Assembly (NCBI RefSeq): GCF_003312875.1
Contig: NZ_CP015163.1
Span: 3,348,001 to 3,412,000, forward strand
Direction of reading: 5' to 3'
Length of the DNA: 64,000 nt
Origin: Amycolatopsis albispora
GTDB taxonomy: Bacteria; Actinomycetota; Actinomycetes; Mycobacteriales; Pseudonocardiaceae
Part shown: positions 16,733-28,911 of the stretch, piece by piece
Layout of the letters: every line of letters starts with the position of its first letter
How positions within the stretch are numbered: position 1 is the first letter of the stretch
Notes under the pieces: generated by a model
Database searches by the model: none
Told to the model about the DNA's origin: nothing
Seen by the model: the letters and a program-made list of their open reading frames with translations, nothing else
Made by a program: the position numbers and the translations under genes

Positions 16733-18556
16733 ATGACGCCGCATCCGCTCTCCGCGCTCACCGCTGACGAAATCAACGACGTCCGGCGGGTGCTGACCGA
16801 CGCCGGGCAAGTCAACACGGACACCCGGTTCGCGTACGTCGGTCTGGACGAGCCCGACAAGTACGAGACCGCGCCGGAGCGGCGGGCGCGCGCGTTGCTG
16901 CTCAACCTCAAAACGGGCGCGGCGAGCGATGCGCGCGTTTTTCTGACGACCAAGGCGGTGGAGGTCGTCCCGATCGACGCCGCGGTCGGGCAGTTGCCCA
17001 TCCTCGACGAGGAATTCGGCGTCATCGGGCCGATCCTCAACGAGTCGCCAGAGTGGTTGGCGGCGCTGGAGAAACGCGGCGTCGATCCGGGCTCGGTGAT
17101 TTTTGCGCCGCTGTCGGCGGGCAACTACGGGTATCCGGACGAGGTGGGCAAGCGGTTGCTGCGGGTGCTCGCCTTCCGCCAGGACTTTCCGGCGGACCAC
17201 TGCTGGGCGCATCCGGTGGACGGGCTGTGTGCCTATGTCGACTTGATCGAGCGCAAGCTGCACAAGCTGATCGACCACCGCGTATTCGAGGTACCGGAGG
17301 AATCGGGCAACTACAACGATCCGGAGGTGGCCGGGCCGCCACTCGAGGGGCTCAAGCCGATCGAGATCCGTCAGCCGGAAGGGCCGTCCTTCCGGTTCGA
17401 TGGCGACGAACTGCACTGGGCCAACTGGTCGTTGCGCGTCGGCTTCGACACTCGGGAAGGGCTGGTGCTGCGGAAGCTCGCGTTCGGCGGACGGCCGATC
17501 GTAGAACGCGCGTCGATCGCCGAAATGGTGGTGCCCTACGCCGATCCGTCGCCGGTCCGGTTCTGGCAGAACTACTTCGACACCGGCGAGTACCTGTTCG
17601 GCCGTTACGCGAACTCGCTGAAGCTCGGCTGTGACTGCCTCGGCGAGATCACCTATCTCGACGTCACCGTGGCCGACGAACTGGGCAATCCGCGGGTCGT
17701 CGACAACGCGATCTGCGTGCACGAGGAGGACTTCGGCACGCTGTGGAAGCACAGCGACCTGTTCACCGGCATCGCCGAAACCCGCAGGCAACGCCGGCTC
17801 GTGATCAGCTTCTTCACCACCGTCGGAAATTACGACTACGGCTTCTACTGGTACCTCTACCTCGACGGCACCATCGAATGCGAGGTCAAGCTCACCGGTT
17901 TCCTGTTCACCTCGGCGTATCCGGAGGAAGGATCCGACTTCGCCACGCAGGTGGCGCCCGGCCTCGGCGCGCCGTACCACCAGCACCTGTTCTGCGCGCG
18001 GCTCGACATGGCGGTCGACGGCGGCGCGAACGCCGTCGACGAAATCGACGTGGTGCCCACGCCGATGGGCGAAGGCAACGAGCACGGCAACGCGTTCACC
18101 ACCAGGGCCACGCGGCTGACCAGTGAAACGGCCCGCGAGGCCGCACCGAACCGCGTCTGGCGCATCGTCAACCCGGGTAAGCTGAACCGGATGGGTGAGC
18201 CGGTCGGTTACACGCTTTCGGTGCAGCAGTCACCGACGCTGCTGGCCGACCCAGAATCGGTGATCGCCGCGCGTGCCTCGTTCGCCACGAAGCACCTGTG
18301 GGTCACGCGGTACGCATCGGGCGAGCGGTACGCGGCCGGCGATTTTGTGAACCAGAGCCCCGGCGGTGACGGGCTGCCCGCCTACACCGCCGCCGGTCGC
18401 GACATCGACGGCGAGGACATCGTGCTGTGGCACACCTTCGGCCCGACCCACGTGCCGCGCCTGGAGGACTGGCCGATCATGCCGGTCGACCACGCCAAGT
18501 TCACCCTCAAGCCGACCGGCTTCTTCGACCGGAACCCGACGCTGAACGTGCCCTAG
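16733..18556 (+). CDS. primary amine oxidase (copper / topaquinone)
   Basis: A 607-residue copper amine oxidase, normal length for bacterial cytosolic forms. The topaquinone precursor is Tyr367 in GNYDYG. The catalytic base is Asp283 in WQNYFDTGEY. Copper ligands are the two His in YHQHLFCARLDM (about residue 420) and one in HTFGPTHVPRLEDWPIMP near the C-terminus. The enzyme converts primary amines to aldehydes with O2, giving ammonia and H2O2. The ATG at 16733 follows GAAGGGA. No signal peptide. Its stop overlaps by four bases the stop of the convergent hydrolase gene. Confidence 0.96.
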   Translation: MTPHPLSALTADEINDVRRVLTDAGQVNTDTRFAYVGLDEPDKYETAPERRARALLLNLKTGAASDARVFLTTKAVEVVPIDAAVGQLPILDEEFGVIGPILNESPEWLAALEKRGVDPGSVIFAPLSAGNYGYPDEVGKRLLRVLAFRQDFPADHCWAHPVDGLCAYVDLIERKLHKLIDHRVFEVPEESGNYNDPEVAGPPLEGLKPIEIRQPEGPSFRFDGDELHWANWSLRVGFDTREGLVLRKLAFGGRPIVERASIAEMVVPYADPSPVRFWQNYFDTGEYLFGRYANSLKLGCDCLGEITYLDVTVADELGNPRVVDNAICVHEEDFGTLWKHSDLFTGIAETRRQRRLVISFFTTVGNYDYGFYWYLYLDGTIECEVKLTGFLFTSAYPEEGSDFATQVAPGLGAPYHQHLFCARLDMAVDGGANAVDEIDVVPTPMGEGNEHGNAFTTRATRLTSETAREAAPNRVWRIVNPGKLNRMGEPVGYTLSVQQSPTLLADPESVIAARASFATKHLWVTRYASGERYAAGDFVNQSPGGDGLPAYTAAGRDIDGEDIVLWHTFGPTHVPRLEDWPIMPVDHAKFTLKPTGFFDRNPTLNVP

Positions 18557-19413
18557 CCGAAGTAGCCCCGGAACAGGATTTCGTTGACGCGGGTGGTCGT
18601 TTCGACGCCGGTCTCGAAACCACCCTCCACCACCTGGGTGTTGTTCATGACCGCCACCGTGTAGCGCTCGTCCGGGCCGACGAAGCCAACCGTGTTCACC
18701 AGCCACGAGCCGTCGTTGTTGTCGTCGGACCAGCCGTTCTTGTTGCCCGGCTTCGCGGCCGGGCCCGCGCCCCACACGCCCCACTGCTGGTTCGCGTCCA
18801 CCGCGCGCAGTTCACCGACGATGTAGTCGCGGTGTTCGACCGGCATCCTCTCGAGCACGAAGTCCATCAGGCGGCCGAGGTCGTCCGCCGTGGTGAGGAT
18901 CCAGCCCCAGTGGTGCGGGTGCTCGTCGGTGAAGCGCATGTCGGTCATGCCGTATGACGGGAAGCGGGTGGCGAAGTCCTCGCCGCCGTACCGGTTCCAC
19001 AGCGTGTGCGCGGCGTCGTTGTCGCTGGTGTTCAGCATCGCGTGCATGAGCGCGCGATCCTCGTCGGTCAAATCGACGGCGCCCGCGTCGTCGCGCAGGA
19101 GCAGGTCGACCACCATCGCCAGCTTCGGTGTGGAGCAGGCCCAGATGAGCGTGTCCGAGTTGGCGTTGCGCCAGGTGGCGCCGGTCTGCCTGTCGTGCAC
19201 CACGATCCCGGCGAATCCGGGGCGGCTACGCGCGTAGGACTCCGCGCGGAGGATGCGCCTGCCGAGTTCCGGCTCGAAGCCGGGCGCGGCCGCCGCTGGA
19301 TCGTCTCCGGCGGCGGGCACCGGGCGTGCCTGGGCGACCGGGCTGGTCACCAGCGCGGCCAGCAGCAAGGTGGACAGCACACTGGAAACGACCCGCCGGC
19401 CGGAAGATTTCAC
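18553..19413 (-). CDS. secreted class A beta-lactamase-like serine hydrolase
   Basis: A 286-residue protein with a Sec signal peptide (about residues 1-29, ending AQA). The mature part shows the beta-lactamase/transpeptidase motifs: CSTPKLAMV (SxxK, Ser near residue 93), TSDND (SDN-like) and PGNKNGW in place of the usual KTG. The altered third motif argues against efficient beta-lactam hydrolysis, so a cell-wall peptidase or an inactive homologue is possible. GTG start at 19413. Upstream lies a 900-bp repeat array rather than a normal promoter region. Confidence 0.82.
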   Translation of the reverse strand: MKSSGRRVVSSVLSTLLLAALVTSPVAQARPVPAAGDDPAAAAPGFEPELGRRILRAESYARSRPGFAGIVVHDRQTGATWRNANSDTLIWACSTPKLAMVVDLLLRDDAGAVDLTDEDRALMHAMLNTSDNDAAHTLWNRYGGEDFATRFPSYGMTDMRFTDEHPHHWGWILTTADDLGRLMDFVLERMPVEHRDYIVGELRAVDANQQWGVWGAGPAAKPGNKNGWSDDNNDGSWLVNTVGFVGPDERYTVAVMNNTQVVEGGFETGVETTTRVNEILFRGYFG

Positions 19414-19477
19414 AGGTGCGACCCTAGCGGTTGCGACCGGCGGCGGGCGGCGAGTATTCGGCGGATTTTTCGCCCCT

Positions 19478-20185
19478 CCGATCTGGGACGGATCTTCATC
19501 ACTCCGACCCAGCGCAGGTCTTCACCCCCGCCCTCCCCGGTGCGGTTCCTCACCACTCCGACCCGGGGCAGGTCTTCACCCGCCCAACTGGCGCGGCCCT
19601 CACCGCTCCGGTCGGGACGGGCGTTCACTGCTCCGACACGGGACGGATCCTCACCACTCCGACCCGGTGCGGGTCTTCACCCGCCCGACTGGTGCGGACC
19701 CTCGCCACTCCGACCTGGGCCGGGCGTTCACTGCTCCGGTCCGGGACAGGGCTTCGCCGCCCGGGCCGGGGCGGTTCCTCACTCCGATCCAGTGCAGGCT
19801 TCACCGCCCGACCGGTGCAAGCCCTCACCGCCCGAACCGGGGCGGGTCTTCGCCGCTCGATCCGGGGTAGGGCTGCACCGCTTCGATCACGTGCGGGGCC
19901 TCACGATTTCGACCCGGGGATTCTCACCGCCTAGACCCGGGCGGGTCTGCACCGCCCGACCTGGCGCGGATCTTCGCCGCCCGATTCAGGGTGGGGCCTA
20001 ACCGTTTCAATTCGGGGTGGGGCGTCACCGCCCGACCCCGAGGTGGGGCTTCATCGCCCGACCTGGCGCGGGTCTTCACCACCCGATTCAGGGTGGGGCC
20101 TCACCGTTTCGATTCGGGGTGGGGCGTCACCGCCCGATTCGGGGGTGGGGCTTCACTGCCCGATTCGGGGCGGGTGGCGCCGGGG
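19478..20185. repeat. tandem minisatellite, ~25-bp unit, ~102-bp higher-order period
   Basis: About 27 imperfect copies of a 24-27 bp unit, approximately GAYYCGGGGYGGGKCTTCA followed by CCGCCC, run head to tail. Copies four units apart are most alike: the stretch at 19958-20035 recurs at 20060-20137 with about five differences, and the block near 19585 recurs near 19688. This gives a ~102-bp higher-order repeat. Many units can fold, for example GGGCGG-GTCTGCA-CCGCCC at 19939-19957. All plus-strand frames are nearly free of stops because the unit has none, but no ribosome site or codon pattern supports a gene. Base 19414-19477 shows nothing else clear beyond a possible promoter. Confidence 0.85.
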
Positions 20186-20327
20186 AGGGGCGGGGCGTCG
20201 CCGGGGCCGGGGCCGGGCAGGGGCGGGGCGTCGCCGGGCTGGGGCAGGGCAGGGGCGGGGGGTCGCCGGGGCAGGGCGGGGCGTCGTCGGTTCGGTTCGG
20301 GTGGGGTGGGGTGGGGTGGGGTGGGAT
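20186..20327. repeat. G-rich tail of the array, ending in (GTGGG)5
   Basis: Four copies of a GGGGCGGGGCGTCGCCGG-like segment (near 20186, 20219, 20250 and 20271) are followed by five perfect GTGGG units (20301-20325). The G-run ends two bases before the stop codon of the VWA gene. Such runs can form G-quadruplexes on the plus strand and may stall polymerases or end transcription of the operon that runs into it. Confidence 0.8.
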
Positions 20328-21485
20328 TCAGCGTTCTGTGCTGGTCATGTGGCTTGCCCATTGGGTCAGGTCGTCTCGGCGGATGGCGGCTGCCATCAGT
20401 TCGGGGAACAGGTCCGGCGTGCAGGCGAAAGCCGGGATGCCCAGGTCGGCCAGGGCGGCGGCGTTTTCCCGGTCGTACGAGGGTGCGCCGGAGTCTGACA
20501 GGGCGAGCAGCGCCACCATCTGCACCCCGGACCCGGTCAGCTCCGCCGCGCGGCGTAGCAGGTCTTCCCGCACCCCGCCTTCGTACAGGTCGCTGATCAG
20601 CACCAGCAGCGTGTTCGCCGGGCTGGTGATCAGGCTCTGGCAGTAGGCCAGCGCGCGGTTGATGTCGGTGCCACCGCCGAGCTGGGTGCCGAAGAGCACG
20701 TCCACCGGATCGGCCAGGTGCTCGGTCAGGTCGGCGATCTCGGTGTCGAAGGCGACGAACCGCGTGCTCAGCGAGTGCATCGAGGCCAGCACCGCGCCGA
20801 ACACGCCGGAGTAGACCACCGACTCGGCCATCGAGCCGGACTGGTCGACGCACAGGATCACCTCCCGCCGCACCTGGCGGGCCCGGCGGCCGTAGCCGAT
20901 CAGCCGTTCCGGGATCACCGTGCCCAGCTCGGGCGAGTAGTGCCGGAGATTGGCGCGGATCGTGCGCGACCAGTCGACGTCGGACAGGCGTGGCCGGTGT
21001 GTGCGGGCGGCGCGGTCGAGGGCGCCACGGACGGCGGCCCTGGTCGGCTCGGCGAGTCTGTCTTCCAGTTCGGCGACCACCTCGCGGACCACCCCGCGTG
21101 CGGTCTCCTTGGTTTCCTGCGGCAGCACGCTGTTCAGCGAAAGCAGCGTGCCGACGAGGTGGATGTCCGGTTCGACGGCGGACAGCAGCTCCGGCTCGAG
21201 CAGCATCCTGGTCAGCCCGAGCCTGTCCACCGCGTCGCGTTGCATCACCTGGACGACCGTGCCCGGAAAGTAGCGCCGGATGTCCCCGAGCCAGCGCGCC
21301 ACCCGCGGTGACGAACCGCCCAGCCCGCCGGTGCGGCGGCCGCCGCGGGCCTCGTCCGGCGGGGTGTCGTACAACGCGGCCAGCGCACCGTCGACGCCAC
21401 TGTCCTCATCGGACAGTCCGGCGCCGGTGCCGTCGTCCTCGCCGCCGAGCACCAGCCGCCACTTGCGCAACCGTTCCTCGGTCAT
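20328..21485 (-). CDS. VWA domain protein of a MoxR-VWA-SWIM operon
   Basis: A 385-residue cytosolic protein. The C-terminal half is a von Willebrand A domain with an intact MIDAS metal site: DQSGS (Asp214 to Ser218), a Thr in GGGTDINRAL and an Asp in LVLISDLYEGG. The N-terminal half is helical and specific to this family. It resembles E. coli YehP in domain type. MoxR ATPases usually work on VWA partners, and the MoxR gene is two genes upstream. Last gene of the five-gene operon; its ATG overlaps the DUF5682 stop. Confidence 0.88.
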   Translation of the reverse strand: MTEERLRKWRLVLGGEDDGTGAGLSDEDSGVDGALAALYDTPPDEARGGRRTGGLGGSSPRVARWLGDIRRYFPGTVVQVMQRDAVDRLGLTRMLLEPELLSAVEPDIHLVGTLLSLNSVLPQETKETARGVVREVVAELEDRLAEPTRAAVRGALDRAARTHRPRLSDVDWSRTIRANLRHYSPELGTVIPERLIGYGRRARQVRREVILCVDQSGSMAESVVYSGVFGAVLASMHSLSTRFVAFDTEIADLTEHLADPVDVLFGTQLGGGTDINRALAYCQSLITSPANTLLVLISDLYEGGVREDLLRRAAELTGSGVQMVALLALSDSGAPSYDRENAAALADLGIPAFACTPDLFPELMAAAIRRDDLTQWASHMTSTER

Positions 21486-23665
21486 CGGCTCACCCCCAGC
21501 AGTTTCGCGAGCACCGGCAGCACGGCCTCGGCCCGTTCCTCGTCGAGTTCCTCGGCCACCACCGCTTTCCGGGTGCCGCCACCGGAGGCGAGCCCGGCCG
21601 CGCGTTCCCCGATGGCCCGCTTCTCCGGCCCGGCGAACGCGCCAAACGTGCGGCGCAGCAACGGAAGCACCTCGGTGAACTGCTCGCCCGGAATGGCCGC
21701 GAGCCAGGCGTCGATCACCCGGAGCAGCCTGTCGTCATGCACCAGGAGCAGCGCGCCACCGGCGAAGAAGCCTTCGACGTAGGCCGCGCCCTTGACCGGC
21801 TCGATGCCGGCGGTGAGCACGCGGCCGAGCCGGATCTCCACGTCCCCGGTGTCCAGCCGGTCGGCGTCGAGCAGCAGGCGCGCGAGCTTCCCGGCCAGTA
21901 ACGCGGGCAGGCCGGGTGCGTCGACCAGGCCGTGCAGCGCGTCGATCCAGCGTTCCTTGGCGCTCTCGTCGAGCAGGGTGGTCGCCTCGTGCACGTCGTC
22001 GATCAGTTCGCCGAGGCGGGCGGCCGCGTCGTCGTCGAGGCCGTGCGCGGCGGGCGGCAGCCCGGCGCACACGCGCGCCAGGCTGCGATCGGCGACCACT
22101 CGCAGCGCGGCCACGTCGGTGCCGCGCACGTCGCCGTACCGGGTGACCCTGGCCAGCGCGGGCAACGCGGCCATCAGGTGCGCCACGTCGGCGTCGGCGG
22201 CGGCGCGTTCGTCCAGCGCGGCCAGCACCTCGGGCAGCGCGTCGGTGAGGTCGGCGAGCAGGCAGTCCTCCACCGCGGTGGTGATCTCCGGCAGCGGCGG
22301 CCGCCCGGCCACCACCTTGCGGACCACCTCGGTGGCCGCGGCCGGGACCGTAGTGCCGTAGACCCCGGCGGCGATCAGGTCCACCTCGAAGGACGGTTCC
22401 CAGGCCAGTTCCCAGGTTTCGCGGAACGTGCCCTTGCTCCGGACCGCGGAGACTTCCCTGACGCCCCAATGGATGCCGAGGATCCGCAGGCGGTGCAGCA
22501 GGCGCGATTTGCCAAGGCCCGAATCGGTGCGCAGGTCGAGATCCAGCTCGCGGACCACCGGATCCCGCTTCAGCCGCAGTCGCCGCGCCGTGGCTGTCAG
22601 GTCCGCGGCGAGCGGCGCCTGCGGGACCTGCTCGGACACCGCGCCGAGCCGCTCCCCCACCATCAGCTTCTCGACGACCAGCTTCCCGCGCAGTTCGTCA
22701 CCGTCGCAGAGCACTGCCTGGATGGCCTCCGAAACCTCCGCCAGCCCGGCCGAGGACCGGTCGCGCAGGGTGGCCAGCGTGTCGGCGAGCCGGACGGCCT
22801 CGATCACGTGCGCGGTGGAAACCGGCAGGTCCTGCCCACGCAGCACCCCGGCGGCCTCGGTCATCCAGCGCGCGGTGACGTCGTCCTCGGTGGTGAACAG
22901 GTGGTGGTACCAGCCGGGTGAGCGGATGCCGGCGCCGTAGCCGCTGGCCCCGGCCAGCCGCCCGTGTGTCCACGGCACCCAGGTGCAGGCCACCTTCCGC
23001 TTCGGCAGGCCCTTGAGCACGGCCTGGTCGCGGTTCGCCGGCGGCAGCGGGCTGGCCAGCGCGGGCACGTGCCACGCCCCGCAGATGACCGCGATCCGCT
23101 CGTAGCCCTGCTTGATCGTGCGGCGCAGCACCGTGCGCATGTACGCCTCACGCCGCTGCTCGTGCTCGCCGGAATCCGGCTCGTCCTCGCGCAGGGCCGT
23201 CATCGCCTCGGCGATCACCTCGAACGGCGACGTGCCGTCACGCCAGTGCTCGATCTTGTCGTCCCACCAGCGTTCCGGGTCGTCGTAGCCGGCGACCGCG
23301 GCCAGCCGCGCCAGCGGATCCGCCGACCGCCCCGCCCTGGCCGTGCCGTCCGGTTCGGCGAACTGGAACGCGGCGGGCAGGTCGCAGAAGTGCACCGGCA
23401 CCTCGTGCTCGACCGCGTACCGCAGCGCCTGCCATTCCGGGCTGAACAACGCGAACGGCCAGAACGCCGCGCGCGAGACGTCGTCGCTCGCGTAGGCCAG
23501 CAGCGCCACCGGCGGCCGCAGCTCGCGGACCAGCGGGACCAGCGCGTCGGCCTCCGGCGGCCCCTCGATCAGCACCACGTCGGGCGCCAGCTCGGCCAGC
23601 TCGGTGCGCACGGCCCTGGTCGAACCGGGACCGTGGTGCCGGATGCCGAGCAGATGCACGCTCAC
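21482..23665 (-). CDS. DUF5682 family protein
   Basis: A 727-residue protein of the DUF5682 family. The N-terminal ~250 residues have an alpha/beta pattern with the conserved HLLGIRHHGPGSTRAV, DVVLIEGPPEAD and a later ICGAWHVPAL, and resemble a TraB/erythromycin-esterase-like hydrolase fold in spacing of His and Glu. The rest is helical. No membrane segment. It occurs in the same operons as SWIM, MoxR and VWA proteins; the catalytic role is unproven. Starts and stops overlap both neighbours by four bases. Confidence 0.88.
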   Translation of the reverse strand: MSVHLLGIRHHGPGSTRAVRTELAELAPDVVLIEGPPEADALVPLVRELRPPVALLAYASDDVSRAAFWPFALFSPEWQALRYAVEHEVPVHFCDLPAAFQFAEPDGTARAGRSADPLARLAAVAGYDDPERWWDDKIEHWRDGTSPFEVIAEAMTALREDEPDSGEHEQRREAYMRTVLRRTIKQGYERIAVICGAWHVPALASPLPPANRDQAVLKGLPKRKVACTWVPWTHGRLAGASGYGAGIRSPGWYHHLFTTEDDVTARWMTEAAGVLRGQDLPVSTAHVIEAVRLADTLATLRDRSSAGLAEVSEAIQAVLCDGDELRGKLVVEKLMVGERLGAVSEQVPQAPLAADLTATARRLRLKRDPVVRELDLDLRTDSGLGKSRLLHRLRILGIHWGVREVSAVRSKGTFRETWELAWEPSFEVDLIAAGVYGTTVPAAATEVVRKVVAGRPPLPEITTAVEDCLLADLTDALPEVLAALDERAAADADVAHLMAALPALARVTRYGDVRGTDVAALRVVADRSLARVCAGLPPAAHGLDDDAAARLGELIDDVHEATTLLDESAKERWIDALHGLVDAPGLPALLAGKLARLLLDADRLDTGDVEIRLGRVLTAGIEPVKGAAYVEGFFAGGALLLVHDDRLLRVIDAWLAAIPGEQFTEVLPLLRRTFGAFAGPEKRAIGERAAGLASGGGTRKAVVAEELDEERAEAVLPVLAKLLGVSR

Positions 23666-24747
23666 CCGGCGATCTCCTGCCCGGCGCGGTAGAAGTCGTC
23701 CCAGCCCTCGCGTTCGCGGACCACGGTCTCCAGGTACTCCACCCAGATGGCGCGATCGGCCACCGGGTCCTTGACCACGGCGCCGAGAATGCCGGCGGCC
23801 ACGTCGTGTGCCCGGAGCACGCCGTCACCGAAGTGCGCGGCCAGCGCGAGGCCGCCGGTGAGCACGCTGATCGCCTCGGCGGTGGACAGCGTGCCCGACG
23901 GCGACTTCACCGCGGTGCGGCCGTCCTCGGTGCGCCCGGCACGCAGCTCACGGAACACGGTGACCACGCGCCGGATCTCGGCCAGGTCGGCGACGTCGGC
24001 GGGCAGCTCCAGCGACGCGCCCAGCTGCGCCACCCGCCTGCTGACGATCTCCACCTCGGCCTCGGCGGTGTCCGGCAGCGGCAGCACCACGGTGTTGAAC
24101 CGGCGGCGCAGCGCGCTGGACAGCTCGTTGACGCCCTTGTCGCGGTTGTTCGCAGTGGCGATCAGGTTGAACCCGGGACGGGCCTGCACCTCGGTGTTCA
24201 GCTCCGGCACCGGCAGCGTCTTCTCCGACAGCAGGGTGATCAGCGAGTCCTGCACGTCGGCCGGGATGCGGGTCAGCTCCTCGAGCCGCGCGATGCGGCC
24301 GTCACGCATGGCACGCAGCACCGGGCTCTCCACCAGCGCCTTCTCGCTCGGCCCCTCGGCGATCAGCCGCGCGTAGTTCCAGCCGTACCGGATGGCCTCC
24401 TCGGCGGTGCCCGCGGTGCCCTGCACCAGCAGCGTGGAATCGCCGCTGATGGCCGCCGCGAGGTGCTCGGAAACCCACGTCTTCGCCGTGCCGGGCACGC
24501 CGAGCAGCAGCAGGGCGCGATCGGTGGCCAGCGTGGCGACGGCGACCTCGATCAGCCGCCGCTGCCCCACGTACTTCGGGGTGATCTCGGTCCCGTCGGG
24601 CAGCGTGCCGCCGAGCAGGTACTGCACCACCGCCCACGGGGAAAGCCGCCACGACGGCGGGCGCGGCCTGTCGTCGACCGCGGCCAGCGCCGCCAGCTCG
24701 TCGGCGTGGTCCTGCTCGGCGTGCGGCCGCAGCACAGTGGAAGTCAT
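23662..24747 (-). CDS. MoxR-type AAA+ ATPase
   Basis: A 361-residue AAA+ protein. Walker A is GVPGTAKT (about residues 83-90), the Walker B / sensor region is IARLEELTRIPADVQDSLITLLSEK (core EELTR), sensor 1 is LIATANNRDKG and the arginine segment is ALRRRFN. The form is that of YehL-like MoxR ATPases, which remodel proteins together with a VWA partner. Middle gene of the operon; it overlaps the DUF5691 stop upstream and the DUF5682 start downstream. Confidence 0.92.
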   Translation of the reverse strand: MTSTVLRPHAEQDHADELAALAAVDDRPRPPSWRLSPWAVVQYLLGGTLPDGTEITPKYVGQRRLIEVAVATLATDRALLLLGVPGTAKTWVSEHLAAAISGDSTLLVQGTAGTAEEAIRYGWNYARLIAEGPSEKALVESPVLRAMRDGRIARLEELTRIPADVQDSLITLLSEKTLPVPELNTEVQARPGFNLIATANNRDKGVNELSSALRRRFNTVVLPLPDTAEAEVEIVSRRVAQLGASLELPADVADLAEIRRVVTVFRELRAGRTEDGRTAVKSPSGTLSTAEAISVLTGGLALAAHFGDGVLRAHDVAAGILGAVVKDPVADRAIWVEYLETVVREREGWDDFYRAGQEIAG

Positions 24748-26126
24748 GCCAGCTCCTCGTACATCTCACGGCGGAAGTTCAGGGTTTCGGCCAGCGCCCG
24801 CCGCCAGGGCGCCGAGCCGGGTTCGGGCGCGGTGGTGGCCAGCGGGTGCCCGAGGCACTCCGGCGGGACCGTTCGCGCGATGGTGACCGCGGCGTGCGCG
24901 ACGGCCCGGGTGTCCTCGCGGCCGGCCAGCCAGTCGAGCAGGACCGTGCCCACTTCGGGCGGCCACGGCGCGGGCAGGTCGACCACCAGCCGCGCCACCG
25001 CCTCGGGCCGCGCCTGCCGGATCAGCCGCGCCAGCACCTTCGCCCGTTCGGGTGGCGGCAGCACCTGGATCAGCGTGCCCGCGTCCGCCCGGCCGGGATC
25101 CGCGTCGAACAGGGCCTTCGCCCAGCGTGCGTCGCGATGCCGGACCGCGACCACGGCCCAGCCCTCACGCAGCACCGACGCCGGCGCGCCCTGGACGGTC
25201 AGCCGGACCAGCTCGGCCGGTGTGCCGAACTCGGCCCAGAACTCGGGCGGTGTCGCGGCGACCGCCTGGCGCAGCCAGCGTGTGTCCGCCTCCGGCACGT
25301 CGATTTCGAGCGCGTCTTCGCGGACGCGGACCAGCGGGCGCAGGCGATCGGCCATCCGGCGGCCCAGCGCGGACCCGGGCACCCGGAGCAGCAGCGCCGA
25401 CGCCAGCTGGCGGACCGACGCGGCCCGATCGCCGAGCGCGGCTTCGAGGAACGGCTCGTCCTCGGCCCGCAGATGTTCACCGAGCAGTTCGAGCACGGTG
25501 GCCCTGACCTCGGCGGGCTCGCTTTCCCAGCTGGCCGTGACCGCGGCGCGGGCGCCTTCGGGATCGGCCACCAGCGCGACCGCCAGCCACGAGCGCCGCT
25601 GCGCCGGCGAGCCGAAACGCCAGTCGTCGGCCCCGCCGCCGGGCTCGGGAGCGGCCGCGGTGAGGAAGCGCCATTCCGGGTTCAGCCCGGCCAGCCAGCG
25701 CCCGGCCGGTCCGGCCACCAGCGCCACCGGACCACGCAGCGCCGGTTTCGCGCGGGCGGCTTCGGCCAGCGCGGGCAGCCGCTCCGGCGGCACGCGCAGC
25801 CCGCGCTCGGCCACCACGCCGAGCCATTCCGCGAGCAGTTCGGGACGGCTCGCCGTGAGCAACCGGGCCAGCCGTTCTCGCGCCGCGTCCGGCAGGTCGG
25901 GCCGGGAATCGCTCTCCGCCACCGGCAGTGTTTCCGCCGCGTTCTCCGGCTGCCAGCCCGCGCGCCGGTACGCGGTGAGCAACGCGCCCGCGGTGAGCAG
26001 CGCGTCCGCCGGATCGGTGCGCTCACCGGCCAGCTCCCGCACCGCGGGTGGCAGCGCGCCGAGATCCGGCGCCCGCCGCCGGGTGCCGAGCAGCGCGACC
26101 CCGACCAGATCCGCCCACGCCGTCAC
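24744..26126 (-). CDS. DUF5691 family protein
   Basis: A 460-residue helical, Arg/Ala/Leu-rich protein of the DUF5691 type, seen beside SWIM and MoxR genes. It has the repeat-like look of a HEAT/ARM solenoid (blocks such as RQLASALLLRVPGSALGRRM), suggesting a scaffold. No catalytic motif is apparent. The GTG start at 26126 overlaps the SWIM gene's stop (GTGA), which fixes the start. Confidence 0.85.
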   Translation of the reverse strand: MTAWADLVGVALLGTRRRAPDLGALPPAVRELAGERTDPADALLTAGALLTAYRRAGWQPENAAETLPVAESDSRPDLPDAARERLARLLTASRPELLAEWLGVVAERGLRVPPERLPALAEAARAKPALRGPVALVAGPAGRWLAGLNPEWRFLTAAAPEPGGGADDWRFGSPAQRRSWLAVALVADPEGARAAVTASWESEPAEVRATVLELLGEHLRAEDEPFLEAALGDRAASVRQLASALLLRVPGSALGRRMADRLRPLVRVREDALEIDVPEADTRWLRQAVAATPPEFWAEFGTPAELVRLTVQGAPASVLREGWAVVAVRHRDARWAKALFDADPGRADAGTLIQVLPPPERAKVLARLIRQARPEAVARLVVDLPAPWPPEVGTVLLDWLAGREDTRAVAHAAVTIARTVPPECLGHPLATTAPEPGSAPWRRALAETLNFRREMYEELA

Positions 26127-27466
26127 AACCGCACCGCCCGATCCCCGTCCCAGCACAGCAACGGCCGCAACCCGGCCGAACCCCATTCCCCGGCCAGCGT
26201 GACCATCGCGCCCGCGGACACCGCGAGCAGCCGCCACGGGTCGAACCCCGGTACCAGCGGCAGTATTCGACCGTCCACATCGGACAACACCAGCTCCTCG
26301 CCGTGGCGTGCCGGGCGCAGCCCGGACAGCAGCACGGGCCAGCGGTCCAGCCACGGATCGGCGGCCATCGCCCGTGCGTGCGCGGCCAGCGCGACGTCGA
26401 TGGTGTCGCCGTCCGGCCGGGTGGCGGGCACCGGCGGACCGTGGTCGGCGACCAGCGCGCGCAACGGCAGCGCGCTGGGGTGGAAGGCCAGCTCCGCCGG
26501 GAGCACGTGCCCGGCGGGCAGCACCGAGCTGAGCGGCTGGCCCGGCGGCGCGAACGACAGCACCAGCGCCACCCGGCCGCTCCGCTCGCCGAACAACCAC
26601 GACCGCCGGGTGACCAGCTGGTCGCGCTCCTCGTCGAGCACCCCGCCGACCAACCAGGTGTCCGAGACGCGCTCACCGGACGACAGCACCCGCGCGGTGT
26701 CGGTGTTGAAGCCAAGCCGCGTGCGGACGGTCTCGGCCAGCGCGTGCGGTAGTTCGTCCAGCCGCGACCCGGCCTCGGCCAGCAGGTAGAGCAGCGACAG
26801 TTCGGCGAGCACGCGGCTCGGCCAGTCCTTGCGGCGGCCGACCAGGCCCGCCGCCCGGCGCAGCCCACCGGCCAGGCCGGGGGCCTGCGCGTCCACCATG
26901 CGCGCGGCCACCCGCCGCAGTTCCTCGGCGCCGCCGCGCTCCAGCCCGGCCAGCCCGCCGCGGACCTGGTCGAGCAGCCATTCACGCAGCTCGCCGGCAC
27001 CGGCGCTGACCCTGTCGGCCCGGCGCTCGGCACGTTTGGCCGCGGCTTCGGGATCACGCGGCCCCGCGCTTTCCCGGCGTTGCTCGGTGCGCTCGGCCCG
27101 CCTGGCGCGCTCGGCGAGCCAGGCCGTGACGAACTCCGGCTCCGGTTCCTCCGGCAGCTCACCGCCAGCCCAGCGCAGCAGCAGGCCGAGCGCGTGCTTG
27201 CACGGGAACTTGCGGCTGGGACAGGAACACCGGTACGCCGGACCGGCCAGTTCCACGCACGTCTGGTACGGCTTTTTGCCGCTGCCCTGGCAGTACCCCC
27301 ACACGGCCGCCGCCGACGCGCCCGCGCCGGACCAGCGCACCGCCGCCGCCTGCGCGCGCCCGGCCCGCGCCGAAGCCGCGTCCGGCGCGAGACCGATCAC
27401 GCGCTCGGTGCTCCACCGTGCCGGAGACACCTCAGGCACCTCGGACACCACGCCTCCCAACCCCAC
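26123..27466 (-). CDS. SWIM zinc finger protein
   Basis: A 447-residue protein. The SWIM motif CxCx6CxH is at Cys80, Cys82, Cys89 and His91 (YRCSCPSRKFPCKH), followed by a long Arg/Glu-rich helix and a C-terminal beta-rich region. SWIM fingers bind DNA or protein. It resembles E. coli YehQ in content. It is the first gene of the five-gene operon; GTG starts at 27466 and 27448 are both possible, with GGGAGG lying just before the latter. The first ~100 bp upstream are shared with the divergent P450 gene. Confidence 0.88.
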   Translation of the reverse strand: MGLGGVVSEVPEVSPARWSTERVIGLAPDAASARAGRAQAAAVRWSGAGASAAAVWGYCQGSGKKPYQTCVELAGPAYRCSCPSRKFPCKHALGLLLRWAGGELPEEPEPEFVTAWLAERARRAERTEQRRESAGPRDPEAAAKRAERRADRVSAGAGELREWLLDQVRGGLAGLERGGAEELRRVAARMVDAQAPGLAGGLRRAAGLVGRRKDWPSRVLAELSLLYLLAEAGSRLDELPHALAETVRTRLGFNTDTARVLSSGERVSDTWLVGGVLDEERDQLVTRRSWLFGERSGRVALVLSFAPPGQPLSSVLPAGHVLPAELAFHPSALPLRALVADHGPPVPATRPDGDTIDVALAAHARAMAADPWLDRWPVLLSGLRPARHGEELVLSDVDGRILPLVPGFDPWRLLAVSAGAMVTLAGEWGSAGLRPLLCWDGDRAVRL

Positions 27467-27582
27467 TTGCCCACCTCTCCCCTCGACCCGGATGGATCAT
27501 GCCAGCGGGCACCGACAGTTTCGGCGGCCACCACGCGGGTAGTCGGTTGGCGACCGGAAACCGCACCAGGGAGGTCCACACG

Positions 27583-28911
27583 ATGCCACGGCCCAGCGCG
27601 GAAGACCACGGCCTGACCACCTTGCCGGTGACCGACGCGGCCCGCGTGCTCACCGGGGTCGCACTGCCCACGCTGGCCGCCGGGGTGATCAAGCGGCTGC
27701 CGCCGATGATGAAGGTCGCCGAAAAGCTGCGTGTGGACGAAAGCGCGGACCGCGTGCTGCGCCGCCTGCGTGATCGCCACGGCGACGGGCCACTGCTGAT
27801 CAAGGCGCCCGGCCGGACCTTCGCGCTGCCCCTGTCCTCGGCGGACGCCGGCCGCGTGCTCGCCGAGTCGCCGTCGCCGTTCCACCCGGCGAACCTGGAG
27901 AAAACCGCCGCGCTGTCGCACTTCCAGCCACACGGCGTGCTGATCTCGCAGGGCGCCGAACGGGACGTGCGCCGCCAGTTCAACGAGAACGTGCTGGAGA
28001 CCGGTGAACCACTGCACCACCTGGCGCCCGCCGTGGCCGCGAAGGTGCGCGAGGAAGCGAGCCGGATGCTGGAACTGGCGGAGGTCGGCGGCAGGCTCGA
28101 CTGGCACACGTTCAACACGGCCTGGTGGCGGATCGTGCGCCGGGTGACGCTCGGCGACGCGGCCCGCGACGACCACCGCACCACGGACCTGCTGGCGCGC
28201 CTGCGACTGCGTGCGAACGTCGCCTACGGCATGAAGAAGGACAAGGCCACCCGCGAAGAAGTCGGTCAGCGGTTGCGCGCGCACGTGGCCCGCGCGGAGA
28301 AGGACAGCCTGGCCGGCGTGATCGCGCAGACCACGGCGAGCCCGGAAACCGATCCGGTCGGGCAGCTCCCGCACTGGCTGTTCGCCTTCGACGCCGCCGG
28401 GATCACGTCGTACCGGACGCTGGCACTGCTCGCCACGCACGCGGAGGAACGCGCGAAGGCGCTCCAGGACGAGGGCCCGCTGCTGCCGTACCTGCGTGCT
28501 TGCGAACTGGAATCGGTCCGGTTGTGGCCCACCACGCCGATGATCCTGCGTGACTCCACAGAGGACACCGACTGGCGTGGCGGCACCATGCCCGCCGGGA
28601 CCACCGTGCTGATCTTCGCGCCGTTCTTCCACCGCGACGAGGAGGAACTGCCGTTCGCGCACTGGTTCATCCCGGAGATCTGGCTCGACGGCCGCGCGCG
28701 TCAGCACCCCGCGCTGGTGCCGTTCAGCGCCGGTCCCGCCGAGTGCCCCGGCCGGAACCTGGTCCTGCTGGTGACCAGCACGCTGCTGTCGGCGCTGCTG
28801 GAACGCGCGGAGTTCACCGCGCTCAAACCGCTGGAGCCGGGCCGCCTGCCGTCCACTTTGGACAACTTCGGGCTGGCGTTCGACGTCACAGCACCGCGAC
28901 AGCGGACTTGA
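27583..28911 (+). CDS. cytochrome P450
   Basis: A 442-residue P450. The heme-binding loop is FSAGPAECPGRNL (Cys near residue 386), the ExxR motif is ELESVRLWP, and the I-helix segment is FDAAGITSYRTL, where the usual acidic-Thr pair is changed to Ile-Thr-Ser. No membrane anchor, so it is a soluble bacterial form. The ATG at 27583 follows GGGAGG at eight bases. No ferredoxin or reductase gene is adjacent. Its end overlaps the convergent UdgX gene by 26 bp. Substrate unknown. Confidence 0.92.
   Translation: MPRPSAEDHGLTTLPVTDAARVLTGVALPTLAAGVIKRLPPMMKVAEKLRVDESADRVLRRLRDRHGDGPLLIKAPGRTFALPLSSADAGRVLAESPSPFHPANLEKTAALSHFQPHGVLISQGAERDVRRQFNENVLETGEPLHHLAPAVAAKVREEASRMLELAEVGGRLDWHTFNTAWWRIVRRVTLGDAARDDHRTTDLLARLRLRANVAYGMKKDKATREEVGQRLRAHVARAEKDSLAGVIAQTTASPETDPVGQLPHWLFAFDAAGITSYRTLALLATHAEERAKALQDEGPLLPYLRACELESVRLWPTTPMILRDSTEDTDWRGGTMPAGTTVLIFAPFFHRDEEELPFAHWFIPEIWLDGRARQHPALVPFSAGPAECPGRNLVLLVTSTLLSALLERAEFTALKPLEPGRLPSTLDNFGLAFDVTAPRQRT

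Follow-up and report, generated by a model that had tools for sequence, protein, structure and literature searches.

Amycolatopsis albispora carries, on the minus strand of the 64,000-nucleotide stretch of DNA analysed here (contig NZ_CP015163.1, positions 3,348,001 to 3,412,000; hereafter the window), a compact operon of five genes encoding a SWIM zinc-finger protein, a DUF5691 protein, a MoxR-family AAA+ ATPase, a DUF5682 protein and a von Willebrand factor A (VWA) protein. The genome is a single contig of 9.12 Mb. What is new here is a putative damage-type promoter motif in front of operons of this kind, which are called class A below. The genes, taken from the list of open reading frames and named by Pfam, and the putative promoter lie at the following window coordinates:

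27496-27518, minus strand: putative RecA-NDp/PafBC-type promoter, CTGTCGGTG-N8-CATGAT (10/12 consensus positions)
26123-27466, minus strand: SWIM zinc-finger protein, 447 amino acids (Pfam SWIM PF04434, E 7.6e-6)
24744-26126, minus strand: DUF5691 protein, 460 amino acids (Pfam PF18944, E 8.6e-113)
23662-24747, minus strand: MoxR-family AAA+ ATPase (YehL-like), 361 amino acids (Pfam AAA_5 PF07728, E 1.6e-39)
21482-23665, minus strand: DUF5682 protein, 727 amino acids (Pfam PF18934, E 1.4e-269)
22886-23665, minus strand: N-terminal domain of the DUF5682 protein, approximately residues 1-260, with a predicted TraB-like fold
20328-21485, minus strand: VWA (CoxE-like) protein, 385 amino acids (Pfam VWA_CoxE PF05762, E 1e-54)

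The original prediction of a coupled operon is borne out by these frames, which overlap by exactly four bases (GTGA or ATGA) at every junction; its wording, that all five genes overlap the next, has to be corrected to the four junctions that five genes possess. The domain names it had given were right, and the MoxR-VWA pair that it had pointed out is indeed present as AAA_5 and VWA_CoxE genes. The closest DUF5682 proteins, with 94-95% identity, come from records named Amycolatopsis and Saccharothrix. No paper on DUF5682 or DUF5691 was found in the open-licence part of PubMed Central.

The promoter region of class A

The DNA damage regulator PafBC acts through the RecA-NDp motif (PMC6789036), for which the consensus tTGTCRgtg-8-TAnnnT has been given (PMC5656591), and TGTCRG-10-TA-3-T in Mycobacterium tuberculosis (PMC8151990). 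The window site is placed 29 nucleotides before the SWIM start codon (genome positions 3375496-3375517 for its 22-mer). Class A shares the RecA-NDp motif with the PafBC regulon of mycobacteria; the putative window site deviates from it at two positions. Its support comes from its position and from similar sites conserved before the SWIM gene in Amycolatopsis and Kribbella.

Twelve fixed positions of the motif were scored between -300 and +45 of the SWIM domain start in 117 class A loci. All twelve are matched in 26 loci, at least 10 in 68 and at least nine in 92, while the expected numbers are about 0, 1.1 and 10.6 for first-order random sequence and 0.25, 2.0 and 11.5 for random stretches of the same loci. 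Some of the 117 may be near relatives; when one locus per cluster is kept, 111 remain, among which 24 reach 12, 43 reach 11 or more and 62 reach 10 or more, compared with 0.18% of random stretches at 12/12 and 1.5% at 10 or more. Inside collinear operons, scores of at least 10 are found before MoxR, DUF5682 and VWA in only 1/101, 1/101 and 1/99 cases, and on the reverse strand in 2/100. Six upstream patterns (seven with a mismatch variant) had been tried before that of PafBC, but the excess is far above what such a choice could produce, and a count of all 8-mers serves as an unbiased check: TGTCGGTG comes out on top, in 34 of 118 upstream regions versus 4 of 450.

The arrangement of the genes offers a further test. 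In the loci of streptomycete type, in which SWIM-DUF5691 is divergent from MoxR-DUF5682-VWA, a motif scoring at least 10 stands before the SWIM gene in 17/17 and before the MoxR gene in 17/17; nine of these 17 loci belong to named organisms of Streptomycetaceae type. The motifs on the MoxR side have CA in place of TA at the -10 element, like the window site. Among named actinobacterial loci, 39/68 score at least 10, and these cover 21 of 34 genus labels. On this evidence, class A in actinobacteria is probably under damage-linked regulation.

In the genome of A. albispora itself, the strict pattern occurs at 12 sites and at none in reversed controls (139 sites versus one control in eight other genomes); at eight of the 12, a start codon follows after 6-8 bp. 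Three of the 10 genes scanned downstream encode a DNA ligase, an RNase_T/GIY-YIG exonuclease and a sliding-clamp protein. Two adjacent WYL genes follow Pup-ligase-family genes on the same strand at a distance of at least 2.4 kb, the arrangement to be expected of pafA-pafBC. The remaining genes behind strict sites include a methyltransferase, acetyltransferases, a glyoxalase and an ABC transporter; the last three kinds, together with the fact that only 51/100 collinear loci reach at least 10 of 12, would suit a general stress operon, in which case the PafBC motif, as one promoter among several, would carry little functional meaning. The presence of the motif before both half-operons in all 17 divergent loci speaks against such an accessory role, and so does a Deinococcus copy that carries an unrelated damage operator; we regard this explanation as the least probable of those considered here.

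That copy, the class A set of Deinococcus taeanensis, shows TTACGCCAGAAACATAA just 5′ of the SWIM start. It agrees at 15/17 positions with the DdrO operator, whose consensus is TATGYYHTTARCRKA (PMC8533742), and none of 400 shuffles equalled this score. In Deinococcus radiodurans, the DUF4132 protein DRA0166 is reported to be controlled by DdrO and to rise with mitomycin C in dependence on IrrE (PMC8533742). The proteome of a mycobacterial pafBC deletion contained less of MSMEG_5511, a ‘von Willebrand factor’ protein, and of MoxR1/MoxR2 (PMC5656591).

Other regulators were considered and set aside. The perfect LexA box GAACN4GTTC occurs in 0/118 class A and 0/21 class C upstream regions (the latter class is defined below); boxes with one mismatch occur in 33/118 class A upstream regions, against 11.3 in mononucleotide shuffles. 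Motifs of HspR and SigR type gave nothing convincing, and GGGAAC was found in 16/118 class A regions (13.3 in shuffles) and 5/21 class C regions (2.1). The alphaproteobacterial LexA box was matched at 6/8 positions at best in two plasmid copies. In E. coli, MolR has been described as part of the LexA regulon (PMC8533742); no supporting box was found here, as the 26-kb stretch that includes yehH-yehL contains no CTGTN8ACAG.

Conservation of the set and its relatives

The cross-genome search that the original prediction had called for finds the genes linked. All five are present in 71 of the best 80 of 583 matches, these 80 being the named loci and leaning to close relatives: 63 have the collinear five, eight have SWIM-DUF5691 divergent from MoxR-DUF5682-VWA, and nine lack some part. 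Six of the incomplete loci stand at contig ends (L119, L133, L147, L168, L175 and L177), and in another (L169) the SWIM gene is displaced and no DUF5691 was found. Two broader samples give the same result. In 120 genomes of the family, DUF5682 above 730 bits and DUF5691 at E <=2.4e-56 occur in the identical 39 genomes and adjacent to each other, four further genomes having DUF5691 with a weak match (E 2e-4 to 5e-4) and without DUF5682. In 198 genomes of the phylum, all 19 genomes with DUF5691 above the cut-off have DUF5682 nearby; four more have DUF5691 below the cut-off and two have DUF5682 only. The linkage of the genes exceeds chance. A possible four-base overlap was counted at 57/95, 79/97, 50/115 and 78/114 of the same-strand junctions of relatives, in operon order, frames with both domains fused being dropped by the distance limit.

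Class A also occurs outside actinobacteria, in cyanobacteria, planctomycetes and Bacteroidia, and plasmids of Deinococcus, Rhizobium and Methylosinus carry the genes in this order too. In Deinococcus a small open reading frame separates MoxR from DUF5682, and in Methylosinus the VWA frame is broken into three. SWIM and DUF5691 share one annotated coding sequence on a Hymenobacter plasmid and a stop-free frame in 13 of the best 80 of 583 loci, an open frame alone being no proof of fusion.

Best-hit maps of loci hand-picked from the hits in the phylum and family samples resolve four classes, with names coined here, that share a core of adjoining MoxR, DUF5682 and VWA genes. Class A is the window type, SWIM-DUF5691-MoxR-DUF5682-VWA. 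In class B (L063-L078), MoxR stands ahead of a single long frame that spans both DUF5682 and VWA, and this frame is stop-free in 7/7 loci inspected out of 16 fetched. Class C, the E. coli type, reads DUF4132-MoxR-DUF5682-VWA-SWIM, and class D is VWA-MoxR with a divergent DUF5682.

The likeness to E. coli yehLMPQ seen by the original prediction holds for the order MoxR-DUF5682-VWA and for the presence of a SWIM gene. In yehI-L-M-P-Q, however, DUF4132 stands in front, SWIM (yehQ) comes last and DUF5691 is missing, whereas the window set starts with SWIM and has no DUF4132, and is a sister class of the yeh locus and not the same locus; the two DUF5682 proteins are about 25% identical. The strict E. 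coli type is represented in A. albispora by a separate copy at 8.02 Mb (approximately 8.0175-8.0306 Mb), a class C set with the second DUF5682 of the genome; the final gene of this set, unmatched in Pfam, can be aligned with the YehQ profile of E. coli. YehL has been named as one of seven MoxR subfamilies, and the part of that paper cited here assigns it no role (PMC3893208). In E. coli K-12, yehF (PF05406 family), the pseudogene yehH and yehI lie ahead of the yeh set, and the DUF4132 profile is matched by the frames of yehH and yehI alike.

Regarding the promoters of these relatives, a looser PafBC pattern is found in 6/19 class C loci of actinobacteria versus 6/950 random stretches, a suggestive result only, and the strict 12-position pattern reaches at least 10 in 2/17. 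A PafBC-like TGTCAG-N10-TAATCT lies 50 bp before the DUF4132 domain start of the A. albispora class C copy. The strict motif is found in none of 16 class B and 20 class D loci even at a score of nine.

The original prediction had also proposed a conflict or quality-control machine. MoxR-vWA conflict systems with a third component (VMAP, iSTAND, FtsH or beta-propeller) have been described (PMC7159879), and vWA-MoxR-VMAP has been linked to CRISPR (PMC10910872). By analogy, the present set might be an anti-phage system, with MoxR-VWA as the part that sets a threshold, DUF5682 as the effector and the damage promoter as one alarm among others. Some features of the distribution would suit it. Occurrence is patchy, class A being found in only one of the six listed genomes of the genus, that of A. 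albispora itself, and plasmid copies exist (36 plasmid records with a match, some of them chromosome-sized). One of these, on the Hymenobacter plasmid (L182), is beside a PDDEXK nuclease, and a class C copy on an Iodobacter plasmid (L183) is beside a type I restriction set; when seven chosen neighbour genes were scanned, these nuclease and restriction neighbours matched PDC-S02 models of PADLOC.

Like the ternary systems, the window set joins a further conserved component to a MoxR-vWA pair, but no VMAP, STAND, FtsH or beta-propeller component is found above the Pfam cut-off (the MoxR protein has matches below it, to bpMoxR with 25.4 of 27 bits and to nSTAND3 with 15.3 of 27.2 bits); DUF5682, DUF5691 and SWIM take their place. 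The text of PMC7159879 contains neither ‘yeh’ nor ‘zinc finger’. No variable effector is seen, since the same five genes recur in the 71 loci mentioned above with no recurrent extra gene. No family flanking class A recurs in more than six genus labels, and with regard to the suggested test of association with defence islands, class A has no recurrent defence neighbour, the two plasmid copies beside restriction-type genes being single cases. None of the five proteins matches PADLOC 2.0.0 at E <=0.001, the nearest values being those of MoxR with IetA (0.0028 and 0.0033, over the shared P-loop stretch) and TRIP13 (0.014). E. coli yehLMPQ matches 5301/5426 E. coli genomes, and in 5162 the match spans 80% or more of the query. 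A phage origin was likewise discarded: of 50,697 phage records a single one, 14 kb long and unverified, was matched, and a scan of viral contigs confirmed none. A conflict role is not supported, and the anti-phage explanation seems unlikely to us. Quality control, the other half of the proposal, is the better fit, and the promoter evidence narrows it to DNA damage.

The neighbours of the operon in the window (16733-19413 and 27583-28911) are a copper amine oxidase, a Beta-lactamase2-family gene and a divergent cytochrome P450. Directly 3′ of the VWA gene (19476-20325) there is a long array of degenerate GC-rich tandem repeats, with periods of about 26, 51, 102 and then 33, and GGGTG repeats at its end.

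The proteins and their possible function

Conserved residues of the five proteins agree with their family assignments. The SWIM protein has the pattern CxCx6CxH, with C80, C82, C89 and H91 at least 90% conserved in 32 relatives. In 99 MoxR sequences, the G, P, G, T and K of Walker A (GVPGTAKT in the window), the EE of Walker B and the arginine motif RRF are invariant; midasin and, after it, NorQ are among the closest solved relatives. In 99 VWA sequences, the metal ion-dependent adhesion site (DxSxS, T, D) keeps its D, S, S and later D in 100% and its T in 87%. DUF5691 is predicted to be an all-helical repeat protein (solenoid), in line with the solenoid-like scaffold originally guessed: the model is all-helical and confident (predicted local distance difference test, pLDDT, 91.6), residues 191-266 are HEAT/alphaRep-like (E 0.0043), and matches to HEAT/armadillo-like folds are weak overall.

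The DUF5682 model (pLDDT 88.8) consists of an alpha/beta N-terminal domain and a helical C-terminal part. By fold, the N-terminal domain looks TraB-like: among viral folds, it is matched best by a TraB family protein (E 6.2e-3, probability 1.00), while the Foldseek search of PDB gave no match at E 0.001. The order of its motifs, GxxH, E, R(E/D)xxM and GAxH, resembles by eye that of TraB/PrgY/GumN (TIKI-type) proteins. Unlike these proteins, DUF5682 has an additional, long helical part at its C-terminus and, from its context, is a protein of the cytosol. H10, H11, E34, R172, E173 and H199, invariant in 25 sequences from all four classes, are candidate residues of a metal-dependent hydrolase. 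Sequence searches did not extend this kinship: Pfam TraB matched none of 55 DUF5682 members, a YbaP query found no relative among PDB sequences, and a TraB search across the phylum returned one odd protein. The earlier guess of a hydrolase has some support from structure and none from profile comparison.

RavA-ViaA, NorQ-NorD and CoxD-CoxE consist, as in the window, of a MoxR ATPase with a VWA partner, and their clients are known or proposed. These pairs are not known to include DUF5682 or DUF5691. The class A set might accordingly be a chaperone dedicated to the maturation of one enzyme that contains a metal or cofactor, since its MoxR is similar to NorQ (E 2.1e-11) and its VWA protein belongs to a CoxE-like Pfam family. 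The class C copy of A. albispora is followed by a molybdopterin oxidoreductase gene, and RavA-ViaA has been connected with the Nuo complex (PMC3893208). The oxidoreductase is nevertheless a single case, the flanks of class A show no recurring gene for a client enzyme, and it is not obvious why an enzyme with a cofactor should need a damage promoter, which makes such a chaperone, like the anti-phage system, a rather doubtful candidate.

The explanation that we prefer is a protein-remodelling machine induced by DNA damage. PafBC would turn the operon on after damage, and DdrO would do so in Deinococcus. From what is known of the families, MoxR would form an AAA+ ring, and the VWA protein would be its adaptor, holding the client through the metal site. 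One-frame loci (class B, the 13 loci with a common frame and the Hymenobacter coding sequence) suggest the partnerships DUF5682-VWA and SWIM-DUF5691. The SWIM protein and the DUF5691 solenoid may together, as a single targeting unit, recruit the machine to its client, either a nucleoprotein or a protein. DUF5682, as the partner of VWA, may contribute a metal-dependent hydrolase of TraB-like type, by which the client is cut or checked during remodelling. The likely task would be the disassembly or maturation of protein complexes that form, or become stalled, in the course of repair. Taken in all its mechanistic detail, this proposal is tentative, falling a little short of probable.

Several observations weigh against it. 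With its two deviations from 12, the window site is not remarkable alone, and its variant (CATGNT at -10) has four sites in the genome versus two in controls. None of four Actinoplanes and none of four Rhodococcus loci reaches 10, all the Rhodococcus ones scoring nine at the same place. The PafBC motif reaches 10 in none of nine non-actinobacterial class A loci, which fits a regulator known from actinobacteria, and LexA boxes in cyanobacteria were dismissed for lack of significance (29, 233 and 399 of 400 shuffles). In Streptomyces venezuelae, an initial search suggested that the M. smegmatis PafBC motif is not conserved (PMC9380542). Two cyanobacterial loci (L157 and L158), though close to class A, have DUF5682 without MoxR or VWA near, their scanned neighbours belonging to unrelated families or having no Pfam match. 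Finally, kinship with TraB was not upheld by profile, as hhalign of DUF5682 against a shallow YbaP profile gave a non-significant probability of 0.1 to 0.2%.

As judged from sequence, the operon is a conserved one of MoxR-VWA type, a variant with its own parts whose regulation appears tied to DNA damage across actinobacteria. More broadly, it could belong to a widespread and hitherto unrecognised arm of the bacterial DNA damage response, comprising a MoxR-VWA remodeller, a TraB-like hydrolase, steering by SWIM and solenoid proteins and wiring to PafBC or DdrO, with yehLMPQ as a divergent relative; we hold this wider view with the same reserve as the mechanism. The result bears on a question in Streptomyces: the part of PMC9380542 cited here leaves a PafBC-type response there undecided, and the motif stands on both sides in all 17 divergent class A loci, nine of them from the named organisms of Streptomycetaceae type. 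For the family as a whole, the promoter evidence would turn ‘function unknown’ into a testable statement, namely that class A genes switch on after DNA damage.

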